DNA of 64,000 bases from the NCBI RefSeq assembly GCF_009498215.1, contig NZ_CP043498.1:1550001-1614000 (forward strand), written 5' to 3'. Origin of the DNA: Rhizobium grahamii (GTDB lineage Bacteria > Pseudomonadota > Alphaproteobacteria > Rhizobiales > Rhizobiaceae). How positions within the stretch are numbered: position 1 is the first letter of the stretch; every line of letters begins with the position of its first letter. Position numbers and translations under genes: made by a program. The notes beneath the pieces are model-generated. The model was not told where the DNA came from, did no database searches, and saw only the letters and a list, made by a program, of their open reading frames with translations. This document shows, in pieces, positions 26,850 through 45,328 of the stretch.

Positions 26850-27896
26850 TTAGGCGCCGACCGCTTCCCGCGCGCCATCAAAATCAACCGCGGCAAAGGC
26901 TGCGGCAATCACCTCGGGGCCGGCTCCCGCCTTGACGGCATCGGTCGACAGGATCTGCCGGTAGCGCCGGGCGCCGGGCAGCCCGGTAAACAGCCCGACC
27001 ATGTGCCGCGCCACCTGCTGCAGCCGTCCGCCATTGGCGACATGATGCTCGGCATAGGCCATCATCCGGTCGCGGATCGCGCCCCAGTCTGCCGCCTCCG
27101 CCGCAGCACCATAGAAGCGATGGTCGACATCGGCGAGAATGGCGGCGTTCTGATAGGCCGCGCGCCCAAGCATGATGCCGTCGACATGCTCGAGATGATG
27201 AGCCGCCTCGTCGAGCGTCTGGATGCCGCCGTTGATGCCGATGAAGACATCCGGCCGGGCCTGCTTCGTGCGGTAGACGATCTCGTAATCGAGCGGCGGG
27301 ATCTCGCGGTTCTCCTTCGGCGACAGGCCCTTCAGCCAGGCCTTGCGCGCATGGATCCAGATCGCGTCGGCGCCGGCATCGAGCACCCGGTCGAGAAGGC
27401 CGGGCAGCGCCACCTCAGGCTCCTGCTCGTCGACGCCGATCCGGCATTTCACCGTGACCGGCACGTCGGCCACCGCCTTCATCGCCGCCACGCAGGCCGC
27501 CACGGTCTCTGGCGTCAGCATCAGGCAGGCGCCGAAGGTACCGGACTGCACCCGGTCGGAGGGACAGCCGACATTGAGGTTGATCTCGTCGTAGCCGTAG
27601 GGCGCTGCAATCCGGACCGCCTCGGCAAGCTTCGCCGGATCCGATCCGCCGAGCTGCAGCGCCACCTTATGCTCCGCCGCATCGAAGGACAGCAACCGCT
27701 CGCGCGGCCCGTGGATGATCGCGTCAGCCACGACCATTTCCGTGTAGAGCAGCGCATTGCGGCTGATCTGCCGGTGGAAATAGCGGCAATGGCGATCGGT
27801 CCAGTCGATCATCGGCGCAACGGCGAAGATCGGAGCCCCAGAAATACGGGCTTTTTCGTAGAATGTCAAGCTGTTAGCCTCACTCTGGCTTGTCAC
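26850..27896 (-). CDS. dusA: tRNA-dihydrouridine synthase A (5' end supplied by integrated element)
   Basis: 348 residues from GTG 27896; a TTG at 27869 with GAGG 8 nt upstream is an equally good start and aligns better with the native N-terminus. FMN enzyme reducing uridines in the tRNA D-loop. Seen: PIFAVAPMIDWTDRHCRYFH, the catalytic Cys in NLNVGCPSDRV (residue 111), and phosphate-binding INGGIQTLDEA. The codons for PIFAVAPMIDW lie in the 35-bp repeat shared with 45249-45283. Sequence 5' of it comes from the element and encodes FYEKARISGA, in place of the native FYAEALTSGQ left at 45.3 kb. The gene therefore stays intact after integration. Confidence 0.95.
   Translation of the reverse strand: MTSQSEANSLTFYEKARISGAPIFAVAPMIDWTDRHCRYFHRQISRNALLYTEMVVADAIIHGPRERLLSFDAAEHKVALQLGGSDPAKLAEAVRIAAPYGYDEINLNVGCPSDRVQSGTFGACLMLTPETVAACVAAMKAVADVPVTVKCRIGVDEQEPEVALPGLLDRVLDAGADAIWIHARKAWLKGLSPKENREIPPLDYEIVYRTKQARPDVFIGINGGIQTLDEAAHHLEHVDGIMLGRAAYQNAAILADVDHRFYGAAAEAADWGAIRDRMMAYAEHHVANGGRLQQVARHMVGLFTGLPGARRYRQILSTDAVKAGAGPEVIAAAFAAVDFDGAREAVGA
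27799..27833. repeat. attL: 35-bp direct repeat inside dusA
   Basis: Identical to 45249-45283 over 35 bp (begins GTCCAGTCGATCATCGG). Outside these limits the two sites differ. It encodes the conserved FMN-site peptide of DusA near its N-terminus, the known target of dusA-specific integrases. Confidence 0.92.
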
Positions 27897-31827: not shown

Positions 31828-32182
31828 TCACTTGCCGAGGTGGGTAGGAATTTCGCCGACTTCTATACAGTATGATGAGGGCATGTGCCTTTTCGTGCGC
31901 ACTTGCTGCGTACCTATATGAAGGGGAAACGTTCCCAAGTGGAGCATTTCCGCATCCACTGAAATCATTGATCAATTTCGATTGGCGTCAATGCTTTTGG
32001 CCGAAAGGTATACTTTTCGGCATCTGGGAGAGGTATATAGTAGAGGGGTCGGAAATTTCGGCCCCGACAGCGCATGCGCTGATTGCCGCCCCGAGCGGTA
32101 TCAATGAGAGTTTCTTCAGATCAGGCCGCGTTTACCTCAGAGATTTTCACGGTCTGGCCGGGCGCTTCGGTGCCTGGCGAAC
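31828..32182. other. Non-coding stretch upstream of the structured block
   Basis: About 355 bp. One frame (31872-32258, plus) is open but has no ribosome site, odd composition, and runs into the hairpin block, so I do not accept it. Probably contains a promoter for the following RNA or head genes; no exact site assigned. Confidence 0.3.
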
Positions 32183-32461
32183 AATTCTAGTGAGCTGCAG
32201 GCTCTATGCTAGCTACCCCCCCGGCCCAGTGTTCGGGGGTGAGAGAGAACCTCACTAGAATACCTATTCGGTGCTGTCGCACCGATAGCCGCGCGCCGCC
32301 TCCAACGGCGAAAGCTTGCCTCTGGTACGCAGGTAAGCCCCGCGGCGACCCCATTTCCGGAGCGACGGATGTACTCGCACGGAAATACTATCCCGGTCAC
32401 CGCACGGTGATTTGGTTGATCGAGCCGCGCGCTCTCGTCCTCATAGATGAGCGCGCGGCTT
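32183..32461 (+). ncRNA. Candidate structured RNA (or packaging site) with serial hairpins and a three-way junction
   Basis: Perfect or near-perfect pairings in order: ATTCTAGTGAG (32183) with CTCACTAGAAT (32250), enclosing ACCCCC/GGGGGT (32214/32234); CTAT-CGGTGC (32263) with GCACCGATAG (32278), one bulge, loop TGTC; a three-way junction closed by GCCGCG (32287) and CGCGGC (32340), holding CGCCG/CGGCG (32293/32305) and GCTTGCCT/AGGTAAGC (32313/32330, one G-T); ATTTCCG/CGGAAAT (32352/32379); TCACC/GGTGA (32396/32406); and a 12-bp hairpin AGCCGCGCGCTC (32423) with GAGCGCGCGGCT (32449), which may terminate transcription. No frame here looks coding. Strand is inferred from flanking genes. Confidence 0.5.
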
Positions 32462-32507
32462 TCGCTTTGCCCAACGCCGATTTTGGCAATCATAAGAAAG
32501 ATGAAAT

Positions 32508-32936
32508 ATGACACTGCCTGCACACTGGCGGCAGCCGTCGTTTTCCGTCGCCGAGACTGCCGACCTCGTCGGCGTATCAGAGCCGACGCTGAGGACGTGG
32601 CTAACCCGCGCGCCATCTGGCGCTTTTCTCGGCAAAAAGACCGCTAACCGCATCTTCTTCGCCGGTTTTGAAGTCTTTTACTACCTACTCGTCAACCGCC
32701 TCACTGACTACGGAGTCCCAGTCAGGACGGCTATGCACGCCGCTGCCACATGGGCAACCGAACGTCTGCCGCTCGACAATTATGTGATCGTTCGCAACGA
32801 AGGCGAAGTGACCAACTTCGAATTGGTCGACGACCTGCCGCCAACTATTGAGGCGGGTGCAGTTATACCGCTTCGCGGAATGGCCATCACACTGATCGGG
32901 CGTGCCGCTGAGGTTTACGCCAGGGAGGGTAGCTGA
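32508..32936 (+). CDS. Helix-turn-helix (MerR-like) protein at head of the capsid operon
   Basis: 142 residues. N-terminal HTH with wing: SFSVAETADLVGVSEPTLRT, then LGKKTANRIFFAGFEVFYYL, similar to MerR-type phage DNA-binding proteins. The C-terminal half (~70 residues) is unassigned. The stop overlaps the portal ATG by one base. It could be a regulator of the head operon or bind the packaging site; its place just after the structured block would suit either. Confidence 0.65.
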   Translation: MTLPAHWRQPSFSVAETADLVGVSEPTLRTWLTRAPSGAFLGKKTANRIFFAGFEVFYYLLVNRLTDYGVPVRTAMHAAATWATERLPLDNYVIVRNEGEVTNFELVDDLPPTIEAGAVIPLRGMAITLIGRAAEVYAREGS

Positions 32937-34156
32937 TGTGGCCATTCTCGACGAAGGCCGAACCGGCGATTGAAGCGAAAAGCCTTGCGGAACCGGACGA
33001 AACGCTTGAGGCAATCTTTGCCGGCATTGTGCCAGGCAGTGTGTCGGTCTCCACCGCTCAGGCGATGACCGTGCCTGCCGTGCAAGCAGCTATCCGTATT
33101 ATTTCGGAAGCCGCGGCAAGCCTCGACGTCAAGGTCGTCGAGATTGTTGATGGCGTTGCTCAGGACCGGCCGGACCATCAGGCCAACAAGATCCTAAGCG
33201 GCAGCGCGAATGAGTGGACGTCCGGATATGAACTTATCCGCGACTTGGTAGCGGCCGCGTTGGTCCATGACCGCGGCGGGCTGGCCTACGTCACCAAGGT
33301 ACGGGACGAGCCGCGCGAAGCGATTCAGTATCGGCCATCGGTGATCACTGTCGACTATGACAGTGCCACCGGCCAACCCACGTACAAATTGAACAACGTG
33401 GCAACGCCTGCTGATAGCATCATTCATGTGCGCGGACCGTTCAACCGCTCCCCGCTGTCTCTAGCTCGGGAAGCTATTGGTACGGCGAAGTCAATGGAGA
33501 CCTACGCCGGCCAGTTCTTCCAGAACGGTGCGCGACCTGGCGGCATTATCATGGCCAAGAAGTCAGTGGGAGACACCGGCGTCAAGGCAATGCTCAAGGG
33601 CTGGAAGGAAGCGTTCGCTGGCTCGGCCAACGCTGGCAAGACTGCCGTCCTGTGGGATGAGACTGGCTATCAGCAGCTGACCATGAACTCCACGGATGCG
33701 CAGTTCCTTGAGAACCGCAAGTTCCAGATCATCGAGATTGCCCGCGCGTTCCGTGTTCCGCCGGCCATGCTCTTTGACCTAGACCGAGCGACTTGGAGCA
33801 ACGGCGAACAGCAAGGGAAAGAATTCCTTTCATACACGTTGGAGCCGTGGCTCAAAGTGCTCGAGACTGCCTTCGCCCGCGCGCTCTTCACGCCAGAGGA
33901 AAAGGTGAGATACCGGGTTGTGTTCGACCGGGATGACCTGACCCGCGCCGACCTAACCTCACGCGCCGCGGCCATTTCATCGCTGATCACGGCCCGGGTG
34001 CTCAACCCCAATGAGGCCCGCAATTGGCTTGGCATGCCCCCGCGTGACGGTGGCAATGAATATTCGAACCCGGCGATCGATCTCGCGAAGCCAGACACTG
34101 CCGCCAATGACAACACACCACCCCCCAACAAGGAGCCGTCCGTTGCCGTATCTTGA
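32936..34156 (+). CDS. HK97-family phage portal protein
   Basis: 406 residues. Typical features: VPAVQAAIRIISEAAASLDV near the N-terminus, DLVAAALVHDRGGLAYV, SPLSLAREAIGTAKSMETYA, the FFQNGARPGGII segment, RAFRVPPAMLFDLDRATWSN, and the C-terminal DLTSRAAAISSLI. Forms the dodecameric DNA gate at one capsid vertex. First structural gene of the head operon. Confidence 0.95.
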   Translation: MWPFSTKAEPAIEAKSLAEPDETLEAIFAGIVPGSVSVSTAQAMTVPAVQAAIRIISEAAASLDVKVVEIVDGVAQDRPDHQANKILSGSANEWTSGYELIRDLVAAALVHDRGGLAYVTKVRDEPREAIQYRPSVITVDYDSATGQPTYKLNNVATPADSIIHVRGPFNRSPLSLAREAIGTAKSMETYAGQFFQNGARPGGIIMAKKSVGDTGVKAMLKGWKEAFAGSANAGKTAVLWDETGYQQLTMNSTDAQFLENRKFQIIEIARAFRVPPAMLFDLDRATWSNGEQQGKEFLSYTLEPWLKVLETAFARALFTPEEKVRYRVVFDRDDLTRADLTSRAAAISSLITARVLNPNEARNWLGMPPRDGGNEYSNPAIDLAKPDTAANDNTPPPNKEPSVAVS

Positions 34157-40796: not shown

Positions 40797-43151
40797 ATGG
40801 CGAATGAAGAAAAAAAGCTTGTCGTCGACGTCATGGCGCGTGTCGACAAGCTCGAAAAGGGAATGGCGCGCGCCGCCGCCAATGTGAACAAACAGAGCGC
40901 CGTGATGGAGGCGCGCACCAAGAAGTTTGCCGTTTCCCTTGAATCCAATATCACGTCGGCAGTCGACAAGGTCAACGGCGCTCTCGGCAAGATTGGCCTA
41001 GGCGGCATTGCGGCCGGTGGCGTCGCCGGCATTGTTGCCGGCCTAGCATCTATTGCCAAGGGCGTTGCTGAAATCGGCGACCAGGCGAAGGTCGCCGGCA
41101 TCAACGTTAAGGCGTTCCAAGAGCTCAAGTACGTTGCTGAGCAGAACCGTATTGGAATCGACTCGCTTACCGACGGCATCAAGGAACTGAACCTTCGCGC
41201 CGACGAATTCATTGTGACCGGCCAGGGCTCGGCTGCGGAGGCTTTTCAGCGTCTTGGATACAATTCCGAGACCCTTGCGAAAAAGCTAAAGGATCCAAGT
41301 GAGCTTTTTGCCGAAATCATCGGCCGGCTAAAGCAGTTCGACAAAGCCGCACAGATCCGTATCGCCGATGAGGTTTTCGGCGGCACCGGTGGCGAGAAGT
41401 TCGTGCAGCTCATCAACCAAGGGGCCGAAGGCATCCGCGCCACCACAAAGGAGGCGAACGCCCTTGGCCTTGTGATGGACGACGCCCTTATTCGGCGCGC
41501 TGAGGAGATCGATCGCCGGTTCAACGCCATCAGCAACACCGTTGGCATGAACTTGAAAAGCGCTATCGTTTCGGCAGCCGACAGCTTGGCTGATTTCATT
41601 GACGGGTTTCGCGACTTCCAGAACCAGCAGACCAAAACGCTGGATAATCGCCAGATCGAACTCGGCCAGCAGCGGCTTGAGCTTGAGAACAAAATCCTCG
41701 AGGCACAAAACAATAGCACGTTGTCGGTTCGGAACCGAACGCGCGCGATTGAGACCTACCAGGCGCAGCTAAGGAAGGTCGCCGAGGAAGAAGCCAAGAT
41801 TGTCGACGTGATCAACGGCCGCGTGAAGGCTGCACAGCGCCCCACCGACCGCACTTGGACACCGCCCGTTGCTCCGCCCGGCGGTTTTGGATCCACGGGT
41901 AGCGGCAAGGCGGACCTTTCGCGGTTTCTCGCGCCCGGCAAGGACGCCAGCTCTATCAGCGGAATGTCTTCGTCATTTGAGAGTAAGCTTGAAAAGCTCT
42001 TCGCGGCGCTGCCCGTCGAGCTAGCCAATCAGATCAAGATCAACTCCGGCTTCCGTTCCAACGAACGCCAGGCCCAGTTGTGGCAACAGGCGTTGGAGAA
42101 ATACGGCTCCGTTTCCGAAGCGCGCAAGTGGGTGGCCCCGCCTGGCAACAGCCAGCACAACAAAGGCAACGCCGCCGACCTTGGATATGGGAGCTCAGCA
42201 GCGAAGGATTGGGTGCATCAGAATGCTAGCCGCTTCGGCCTCTCCTTTCCTTTGTCGAACGAGGATTGGCATATTGAGGATTCCGACGCGCGGTCGAAGG
42301 ACGTGGCCGACAAGACCAAGGATCTGGAAGCCCGCGGGAAAGCCTATGATGACATTATCGCCAAGGCTCAACAGTTCGTCGCTGAGCAGGGATTGGAGGC
42401 CGACGCTCTCGGGATGACCGAACAGGCGGCTGCGAAGCTTCGGTATGAGCAGGAACTGCTAAATGCCGCCAAGGAAGCCGGAATTCAGCTAAACCCCGCA
42501 CAGGTCAACAGCCTCAAGGAACTTGCGGCGAATATGGCCGAAGCCGAGGCCCGGACGCGCCAGCTCGGCAAGAGCCAAGAGGAAGCGGCACAGAAAGCTG
42601 CGGAACTGGCCAACGCCGGCAAGGAAATTGTCGGAGGCTTTGTTTCTGACCTTATCCATGGCGTTTCGGCAGCCGACGCTCTCCGCAACGCCTTGGCTCG
42701 TGTAGCTGACACAATGCTGAGTTCCGCTCTTGATCAGCTCTTCGGTGGTGGCACAGTGAAGGCGGGCGGCGGGCTACTGGGTGGTCTCTTCAGCAGTATC
42801 TTTTCCGGTATCGGCAAGAATGCCAACGGCACCGACAATTGGCGCGGCGGCCTCAGTGTCGTCGGCGAGCGGGGTCCGGAAATTGTGAACCTGCCGCAAG
42901 GCGCGCAGGTAATCCCGAACCACAAACTGATCACTGCCCCAGTGGCGCCGTCGCTTAAAGGGAGTGGCGGAGCATCCACCGTCAATAACGCCAGCACGCT
43001 CAACGTCAACGTCTCCGGCGCCAACGGCGATGACCACGTCCGAATGCTGGTCAAGCAAGGCGTCGGTGAGGCGCTAGCCGAGCAGAATGAAAGAATGCGC
43101 CGCGGCGGGTTCGGCCAGATGCAAGATCAATGGAGTGCCCAGAAGGGATAG
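40797..43151 (+). CDS. Tail tape-measure protein with internal M15 peptidase domain
   Basis: 784 residues. Helical N-terminus (VMARVDKLEKGMARAAANVN), a hydrophobic Gly/Ala stretch (IGLGGIAAGGVAGIVAGLAS), a phage TMP core, and the C-terminal GLSVVGERGPEIVNLPQGAQ typical of lambda-H-like tape measures. Residues ~410-505 are a VanY/M15 D-Ala-D-Ala peptidase-like domain: IKINSGFRSNERQAQLW, NSQHNKGNAADLGYG (SxHxxGxAxD), and EDWHIED (His ligand). Such domains cut cell wall during DNA entry. It is the only long tail gene in the element. Confidence 0.9.
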   Translation: MANEEKKLVVDVMARVDKLEKGMARAAANVNKQSAVMEARTKKFAVSLESNITSAVDKVNGALGKIGLGGIAAGGVAGIVAGLASIAKGVAEIGDQAKVAGINVKAFQELKYVAEQNRIGIDSLTDGIKELNLRADEFIVTGQGSAAEAFQRLGYNSETLAKKLKDPSELFAEIIGRLKQFDKAAQIRIADEVFGGTGGEKFVQLINQGAEGIRATTKEANALGLVMDDALIRRAEEIDRRFNAISNTVGMNLKSAIVSAADSLADFIDGFRDFQNQQTKTLDNRQIELGQQRLELENKILEAQNNSTLSVRNRTRAIETYQAQLRKVAEEEAKIVDVINGRVKAAQRPTDRTWTPPVAPPGGFGSTGSGKADLSRFLAPGKDASSISGMSSSFESKLEKLFAALPVELANQIKINSGFRSNERQAQLWQQALEKYGSVSEARKWVAPPGNSQHNKGNAADLGYGSSAAKDWVHQNASRFGLSFPLSNEDWHIEDSDARSKDVADKTKDLEARGKAYDDIIAKAQQFVAEQGLEADALGMTEQAAAKLRYEQELLNAAKEAGIQLNPAQVNSLKELAANMAEAEARTRQLGKSQEEAAQKAAELANAGKEIVGGFVSDLIHGVSAADALRNALARVADTMLSSALDQLFGGGTVKAGGGLLGGLFSSIFSGIGKNANGTDNWRGGLSVVGERGPEIVNLPQGAQVIPNHKLITAPVAPSLKGSGGASTVNNASTLNVNVSGANGDDHVRMLVKQGVGEALAEQNERMRRGGFGQMQDQWSAQKG

Positions 43152-45235: not shown

Positions 45236-45328
45236 TCAGGCCAAGTCCGTCCAGTCGATCATCGGCGCAACGGCGAAGATCGGCTGGCCTGACGTCAGGG
45301 CCTCGGCGTAGAAATTGGATGTGCTCAT
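45236..45328 (-). pseudogene. dusA: Displaced native 5' end of dusA
   Basis: ATG 45328 to TGA 45236 encodes 30 residues: MSTSNFYAEALTSGQ followed by PIFAVAPMIDWTD, the true DusA N-terminus, then reads out into element sequence and stops. The second half is the attR core. It is the left-behind part of the host gene after integration, and would be rejoined on excision. Confidence 0.9.
45249..45283. repeat. attR: 35-bp direct repeat
   Basis: Identical copy of 27799-27833. Defines the right boundary of the element. Confidence 0.92.

Follow-up and report, generated by a model that had tools for sequence, protein, structure and literature searches.

Results

A folded stretch between early genes and head operon

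Are the consecutive hairpins at 32183-32461 of the window (the whole 64,000-nucleotide stretch of Rhizobium grahamii DNA analysed here, whose coordinates are used throughout) the imprint of an RNA, a site in the DNA itself, or an accident of GC-rich sequence? They lie between the early genes of an element (an integrase, PF00589, and an AAA_25/DnaB-like protein) and its head operon, which begins with the following genes:

32508-32936, + strand: first head-operon gene, 142 aa, with a weak HTH_23 match below the Pfam cut-off; its start lies 39 nt past the match to covariance model R1 (see below)
32936-34156, + strand: portal protein (Pfam PF04860, 4.7e-87)

A 35-bp direct repeat at 27799-27833 and 45249-45283 bounds about 17.45 kb, and its two copies are likely the attachment sites of an element of that size; the first copy lies in the 5' part of a dusA-like gene. 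The label "satellite-like" derives from the size of the element and from the first-pass annotation. A 784-aa open reading frame at 40797-43151 could be its tail tape measure.

On the + strand, the minimum free energy of 32183-32461 is -124.6 kcal/mol; 200 dinucleotide shuffles averaged -101.34 (sd 4.99), and not one of them folded as well (z -4.66). The helices drawn in the first-pass annotation were recovered, namely an 11-bp outer stem, a three-way junction, an internal-loop hairpin, a short hairpin and a final GC-rich hairpin. The - strand also folds well (z -4.23, dinucleotide shuffles), so that the energy supports a structure and not a choice of strand. Mechanically called open reading frames overlap the stretch on both strands; the two that were scanned on the + strand (31872-32255 and 32206-32508) had no match in Pfam or PHROGs. 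Rfam release 15 gave no family at its gathering score anywhere in the window (one match of 9.9 bits nearby is at chance level), and the ar35 model (RF02346) had no match within 31850-32600 at E up to 10.

Relatives in phage-like elements

Relatives were gathered from pattern scans of viral contigs and with R1, a covariance model trained on 10 sequences. Runs of R1 on large genome sets used stricter filters and were confined to the family of the window. Among the 148 genomes of the genus, R1 found seven matches above 50 bits in seven genomes; six belong to the training set and the seventh (G377) was new, and the seven include all six genomes (the window's own included) whose portal is at least 54% identical to that of the window. 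Widening the run to the family (297 genomes) brought in one more, G071, which holds two copies, at 70.2 and 50.6 bits. Matches above 50 bits fall in 14 distinct places (the window, L048, L049, L050, L051, L052, L082, L083, L086, L089, L173, L174, L175 and L223), all of them in phage-like elements, and L049, L173, L174 and L223 were found without being in the training set. Left out were L084, L085 and L091, which duplicate L050, L048 and L175, respectively; L176 (39.9 bits), a host locus without phage-like genes, and L058 (19.1 bits), which lacks the loop described below, were counted neither among the 14 places nor in the G-U count.

Searches by plain sequence reached less far. By direct DNA comparison, the RNA region has two real relatives among the 148 genomes of the genus, and a DNA search of the 297 genomes of the family returned the window's own copy and seven matches of 31-59 nt (41-43 bits), which were not used. 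Neither a distant blastn with the RNA region nor tblastn with the first head-operon protein matched any of 50,697 phage records, and this protein had no relative in the viral contigs. The portal had five (L013-L017), of which L017 starts inside the portal and so falls outside the upstream comparison. L013-L016 (portal identity 46-56%, upstream sequence present) have no R1 match, which implies that such head genes can manage without the RNA. The more distant portals of L053-L059 (35-40%) come with a single R1 match, that of L058. A pattern scan of 84,980 species, which misses variants and may omit records near the window, returned four stretches, of which only L091, itself a copy of L061, is genuine. 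The pattern matches L090, L092 and L093 look by eye like coding chance matches, and L087 and L088 were dropped because they look coding.

Covariation and strand

The check for covarying pairs in relatives gave a clear result. In a MAFFT alignment of 10 sequences with 30 core pairs (A1), 90.2% of the cells are paired, compared with 75.9% after shuffling and 34.0-50.0% when the structure is slid along the alignment. Eighteen of the 30 pairs have changed on both sides, and the covariation score of 0.425 (0.181 shuffled) was equalled in none of 500 shuffles. From A1, RNAalifold derived 30 pairs, and 18 of these showed compensatory changes. The model-fitted alignment A5 comprises 17 matches, 15 of them distinct, includes the doubtful rows L058 and L176, and leans towards the structure; within it 25 of 30 pairs changed on both sides (score 0.610, compared with 0.191 shuffled and at most 0.118 slid). 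L223 enters none of the pair counts.

Good folding of both strands is what functionless chance hairpins in GC-rich DNA could offer in their favour. That reading is already refuted by the covariation, and it also faces the conserved position and the finding of L223, a copy outside the R1 model, at the predicted place; it retains practically no probability. The remark of the first-pass annotation that so many pairings are hard to explain by chance is upheld by fold energy and covariation.

Variation within the pairs also points to a strand. The 13 satellite rows hold 24 G-U cells and 3 A-C cells, in a count that excludes the near-constant closing G-U pair and was made on an alignment fitted to the + strand model; a hand count on the MAFFT alignment gave 19 and 4. 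This excess of G-U over A-C argues for an RNA of the + strand rather than a dyad in DNA. The result bears on the proposal that the region is a packaging or recognition site (cos/pac, or a site for TerS), its dyads being read in double-stranded DNA. The region adjoins the head genes, and in many phages cos lies near terS. However, compensated pairs pass through G-U states (24 against 3 A-C), the longest invariant stretches are loops, and the same hairpin occurs in host mRNAs and sRNAs (cspA, ar35), where there is nothing to package. A site of this kind is therefore very improbable; the suggestion of a TerS site is disfavoured, and an RNA acting on packaging or on the helper found no support in this analysis. 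The other half of the earlier proposal, a structured non-coding RNA, is strongly supported by the covariation and by the G-U pairs on the + strand. As judged from these alignments, the region of about 32122-32469 is a real, evolutionarily conserved structured RNA, backed by covariation, without an Rfam 15 family at the cut-off and placed at the early-to-head decision point of satellite-like elements.

Anatomy of the RNA

The RNA can be divided into the following parts:

32122-32156, + strand: hairpin I, 7 bp, with the invariant loop segment CAGAGATTTTC at 32138-32148 (alignment A3)
32157-32178, + strand: hairpin II, GC-rich; folds in the window, L048, L175 and L086
32182-32262, + strand: lineage-specific insertion with the 11-bp outer stem (printed sequences compared by eye)
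32268-32285, + strand: hairpin A, followed by the conserved GATAGCCG (alignment A4, pair counts)
32288-32346, + strand: three-way junction, then GACCCC; closing helix 32288-32293/32341-32346 (fold)
32344-32469, + strand: core unit, the R1 match (119 positions; 90.5 bits, the sequence itself being in the R1 training set)
32354-32385, + strand: P1 hairpin, lower stem 32354-32359/32380-32385, 3-bp upper stem 32363-32365/32375-32377
32390-32420, + strand: P2 hairpin, ATCC ... GTTGAT with a variable middle
32422-32469, + strand: T2, GC-rich hairpin with a T-rich tail (CTTTCGCTTT); terminator-like, covarying, RNA end

Hairpins I and II are common to relatives, and the conserved RNA therefore starts upstream of 32183. 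The hairpins reported earlier are real, whereas the start given for them is not the start of the conserved RNA, which occupies about 32122-32469. Likewise, the 11-bp outer stem exists in the window and yet is no part of what is conserved: it belongs to the insertion at 32182-32262, which by eye is missing in L048, L086 and L175. The insertion carries terminal inverted repeats (ATTCTAGTGAG/CTCACTAGAAT); a search of the window's genome with 32100-32520, which spans it, found no second place besides the window copy.

In its core, the RNA shows by eye the same order wherever the regions upstream of related portal genes share it: the hairpin that bears the loop CGGATGTAC is followed by ATACCATCC, and after it come another hairpin, GTTGATC, a GC-rich hairpin and a T-rich tail. 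P1 of the window has an internal loop (GAG/CA) and the nine-nucleotide loop CGGATGTAC at 32366-32374; variants of this loop are GGAUGAAC in L051, GGAUGUAA in L173 and GGAUGGAC in L174. T2 changed on both sides in 12 of 13 pairs (A5). Many copies have a break in the T-rich tail (TTTCGTTTT and similar), and T2 went uncalled in a simple terminator scan.

Covariation extends to the 5' module, where four sequences for each part give weaker evidence. In hairpin I, 28 of 28 cells are paired and four of seven pairs changed on both sides; paired cells and score exceed those of the shuffles (0/500), while compensated pairs and pair types do not (236 and 438 of 500). Hairpin A and the junction-closing helix together have five of 13 pairs changed on both sides, the closing helix contributing 24 of 24 paired cells and both-side changes in two of its six pairs. 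The covariation attributed to the junction is that of this helix, since MAFFT misaligned the inner stems (32294-32298/32306-32310 and 32314-32321/32331-32338 in the fold), which stand outside the score; L173 was left out of A4 because of a MAFFT misalignment. The long form with the 5' module occurs in the window, L048, L175 and L086, and partially in L089, L173 and L083. In the short form (L049, L050, L051, L052 and L082) a terminator-like hairpin with a T run lies, by eye, directly 5' of P1.

Two further readings of the P1 loop were set aside. A pseudoknot between the GGAUG loop and CAUCC, noticed by eye, is not claimed, since a linker of 2-4 nt across about 10 bp looks too short; its two sides are nearly invariant in the copies and hence can give no covariation signal. 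The AUG in the loop was rejected as the start of a mini-ORF, because the short peptides of the printed copies are dissimilar by eye. In several elements the apex of T2 shows, by eye, UCCU or CCUCCU opposite the AAGGAG-like ribosome-binding site of the first head gene, and an anti-Shine-Dalgarno contact between the two is possible.

A fixed place before exchanged neighbours

All 14 R1 matches above 50 bits share a fixed position directly upstream of the head operon. A reading frame, taken as an ATG or GTG behind an RBS-like sequence, begins 22-43 nt after the R1 end in 13 of 13 elements and after 36 nt in L223; for L051 the ATG at +37 was read from the printed sequence, an upstream TTG being set aside. 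In ten elements (the window, L048-L052, L082, L083, L173 and L223) a short protein comes first and is followed by a portal relative. The short frame of L051, about 80 aa, may be broken, and a portal-like frame follows the RNA in L223. In L086, L089 and L175 the first protein is followed by a terminase-like frame, and a portal-like frame lies far downstream (roles assigned by eye). In L174 the first frame has no named role, and head genes are inferred from a protease-like frame 1.4 kb downstream.

Neighbouring proteins were compared across 13 elements (L223 excepted; frames of at least 100 aa, E 1e-8). The portal-type and terminase-type groups detectably share one downstream protein, at 22-31% identity, with the exception of the pair L082-L175, which has two downstream proteins in common (best 64%). 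Upstream proteins are reshuffled as well: L089 has one at 84% identity with L049, while its downstream proteins are 95% identical to those of L086. The RNA thus keeps its place while both neighbours change. Such reshuffling around the RNA would suit a recombination joint, that is, a sequence kept between early and head modules mainly as homology for module exchange. Most copies, however, are too diverged for blastn and have nevertheless kept their pairing, the opposite of what homologous exchange needs, and we consider this account highly unlikely.

A full phage carrying the RNA is not claimed: L083 lies at the end of a predicted provirus of 56.8 kb, which may be two elements.

A hairpin shared with host RNAs

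P1 has counterparts in the bacterial genomes. Of the R1 loci in the host score range (17-40 bits), 52 were retrieved (L121-L172). One of them, L144, proved to be a satellite copy, and four (L141, L162, L165 and L172) lack the loop. A CspA motif lies within about 500 nt upstream at 26 of the 52, and where the frame is resolved the loop is mostly 24-29 nt, at most about 96 nt, past the cspA stop codon. Several of these host loci are matched by the Rfam families ar35 and cspA thermoregulator. Their usual layout, by eye, is the hairpin followed by a terminator-like hairpin. For Agrobacterium, PMC3738593 reports a transcribed cspA 3' UTR of 66 nt.

All 148 genomes of the genus contain the 18-mer GACCRCGGATGWACYGGC, and there the reversed control scored 0 in every row; a sample of 198 genomes from the order has the 18-mer in 37. 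Its R and Y positions are complementary (A with T, G with C) in all copies among the matches listed. The window's genome has six copies, three of them closely after cspA. ar35 scores above the cut-off in 147 of these 148 genomes and in none of 14 control genomes. In G374, G346, G310, G369, G338 and G334 an ar35 copy and a cspA-linked hairpin share a strand and are some 1.3-1.4 kb apart, like a duplicated pair. At L187 and L188, a GACCGCGGATGAACCGGC hairpin lies by eye between apparent pstS and pstC.

By its sequence and build, P1 is of the same type as the host ar35/cspA hairpin. The ar35-type core hairpin with the loop CGGAUGUAC is present at 32363-32377 of the window, and P1 in satellite copies such as L050 has the same build: G, a bulged A, three covarying pairs, the nine-nucleotide loop and C. 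With ar35 (RF02346) the RNA shares the bulged A, the three upper pairs, the loop CGGAUGUAC, a terminator-like hairpin after it and the same hosts; unlike the RNA, printed ar35 copies lack, by eye, ATACCATCC...GTTGATC and the 5' part. The best satellite copy, L023, has a stretch of 20 nt over the core identical to the ar35 consensus, but scores 24.1 bits against a gathering score of 45 and hence falls outside the family. The cspA 3' UTR hairpin (GCUG-A-CCA-CGGAUGUAC-UGG-CAGC, by eye located past the cspA stop and followed by a terminator-like hairpin) resembles P1, and differs from the whole RNA in being a simple hairpin plus terminator without P2 GTTGATC and the 5' part; no named family for it was found in the libraries searched. 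This kinship, which links satellite-like elements to a multi-copy host hairpin present in every tested genome of the genus, is the most interesting part of the analysis.

Candidate partners of the hairpin were also considered. CsrA is an obvious binder of GGA loops, and its SELEX consensus contains GGAUGU. It was rejected, as PF02599 was found in 0 of 21 genomes (control genomes: 3 of 14 positive). Antisense pairing of the loop with its own cspA transcript was rejected as well: at none of the 26 cspA loci do the 485 nt that precede the hairpin contain a 7-nt complement of the loop.

A putative leader of the head operon

We think it somewhat probable that the RNA is the cis-acting 5' leader of the head (portal/capsid) operon in a group of integrated satellite-like elements of Rhizobium-type bacteria, with T2 as an attenuator gate. 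The model takes up the conserved structure, its strand, its fixed position and the kinship of its hairpin with host RNAs, and from there we infer transcription, termination at T2, regulated read-through and a factor that controls it. The leader would be transcribed rightwards from a start upstream of 32122. T2 ends 22-43 nt before the first head gene, a space that must also hold the ribosome-binding site, so that the head genes are unlikely to have a promoter of their own downstream of the RNA; their transcripts probably traverse the RNA and T2 and would have to read through the attenuator. The upstream hairpins, above all the P1 loop CGGAUGUAC, would serve as the cis receiver, where a factor acting in trans would set read-through: P1 and the 5' module would take the signal, T2 would gate it, and the head genes would be the output. 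Termination would be the default, with antitermination or stabilisation upon induction of the element. Since the hairpin also precedes terminator-like hairpins in cspA 3' UTRs and in ar35, the host probably supplies this factor, either as an RNA-binding protein or as an RNA.

Where such a transcript might begin is suggested by one further feature:

31961-32057, + strand: promoter-like block, ending in TATATAGTAGAGGGG (three-way alignment with L051 and L083)

The putative transcript start would lie near 32050. A consensus sigma-70 scan of the + strand did not call the block, which is found in three of the 13 elements examined (L223 being outside the count) and was not seen in the ten others. 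A promoter inside the RNA-coding DNA is accordingly conceivable, and this is where the chief rival of the leader model sets in. It holds that the RNA is a stand-alone sRNA that acts in trans like ar35, or else forms the 3' trailer of the early operon; either would end at T2, and the head promoter would lie inside the RNA-coding DNA. As an sRNA, it would act through its CGGAUGUAC loop on target RNAs or a protein, as in ar35, and its position would be inherited. The curated alphaproteobacterial sRNA family ar35 has the same hairpin, host loci usually consist, by eye, of the hairpin and a terminator-like hairpin, and ten of 12 printed elements have, by eye, a terminator-like hairpin with a T run upstream of the RNA. 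The host hairpin sits at RNA 3' ends, which would suit the sRNA and the trailer alike. Against an independent sRNA, the copies stay directly before the head operon despite the exchange of head and upstream genes, 22-43 nt leave little space for another promoter, and 7-nt complements of the loop, absent upstream of the hairpin at the cspA loci, are scattered inside the elements. We regard this rival as unlikely, if the most serious of the alternatives.

The leader model has parallels in known phages. The put RNA of HK022 is a cis-acting antitermination leader before terminators and a phage operon, and it and similar leaders would resemble the proposed one in their mode of working, a structured leader before terminators and a phage operon. 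In the late leader of lambda (pR'-6S-tR', controlled by Q), a terminator stands between the late promoter and the late genes, as T2 would before the head genes here; unlike in the present case, where the RNA itself is conserved, control in lambda reads a DNA site and the Q protein. A narrow literature search of open-licence PMC papers found no late- or head-operon leader RNA in rhizobial satellites, and a search of such papers for sequence strings found no description of the hairpin and two unrelated papers with a chance 9-mer. The string r35 was not found in PMC7143759.

Beyond the first-pass annotation, the present comparison adds the fixed position, probably as a head-operon leader, in many elements and the hairpin common to host RNAs. 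It suggests that the elements borrow a bacterial RNA signal to time the building of their shell. In a broader and tentative form, which we judge doubtful as a whole, the CGGAUGUAC hairpin might be the hallmark of an undescribed RNA regulon that spans the order, in rhizobia and their relatives. A host factor would read it in ar35, behind cspA and at further gene boundaries, and would there set either read-through or the survival of the RNA at the neighbouring terminator; satellites would have built it into the leader of their head operon, gating capsid production. Should the leader model be true, a single hairpin mutation would probe the satellite head-gene switch and the purpose of the cspA hairpin together.

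L083 carries the promoter-like block at 266-360 and 382-476, one of the two being a second, more diverged upstream copy. Upstream of the RNA in L048 and L050 lie repeated CACGCGCATTCAAGTCACC...GGGTTGAG dyads, which by eye look operator-like.
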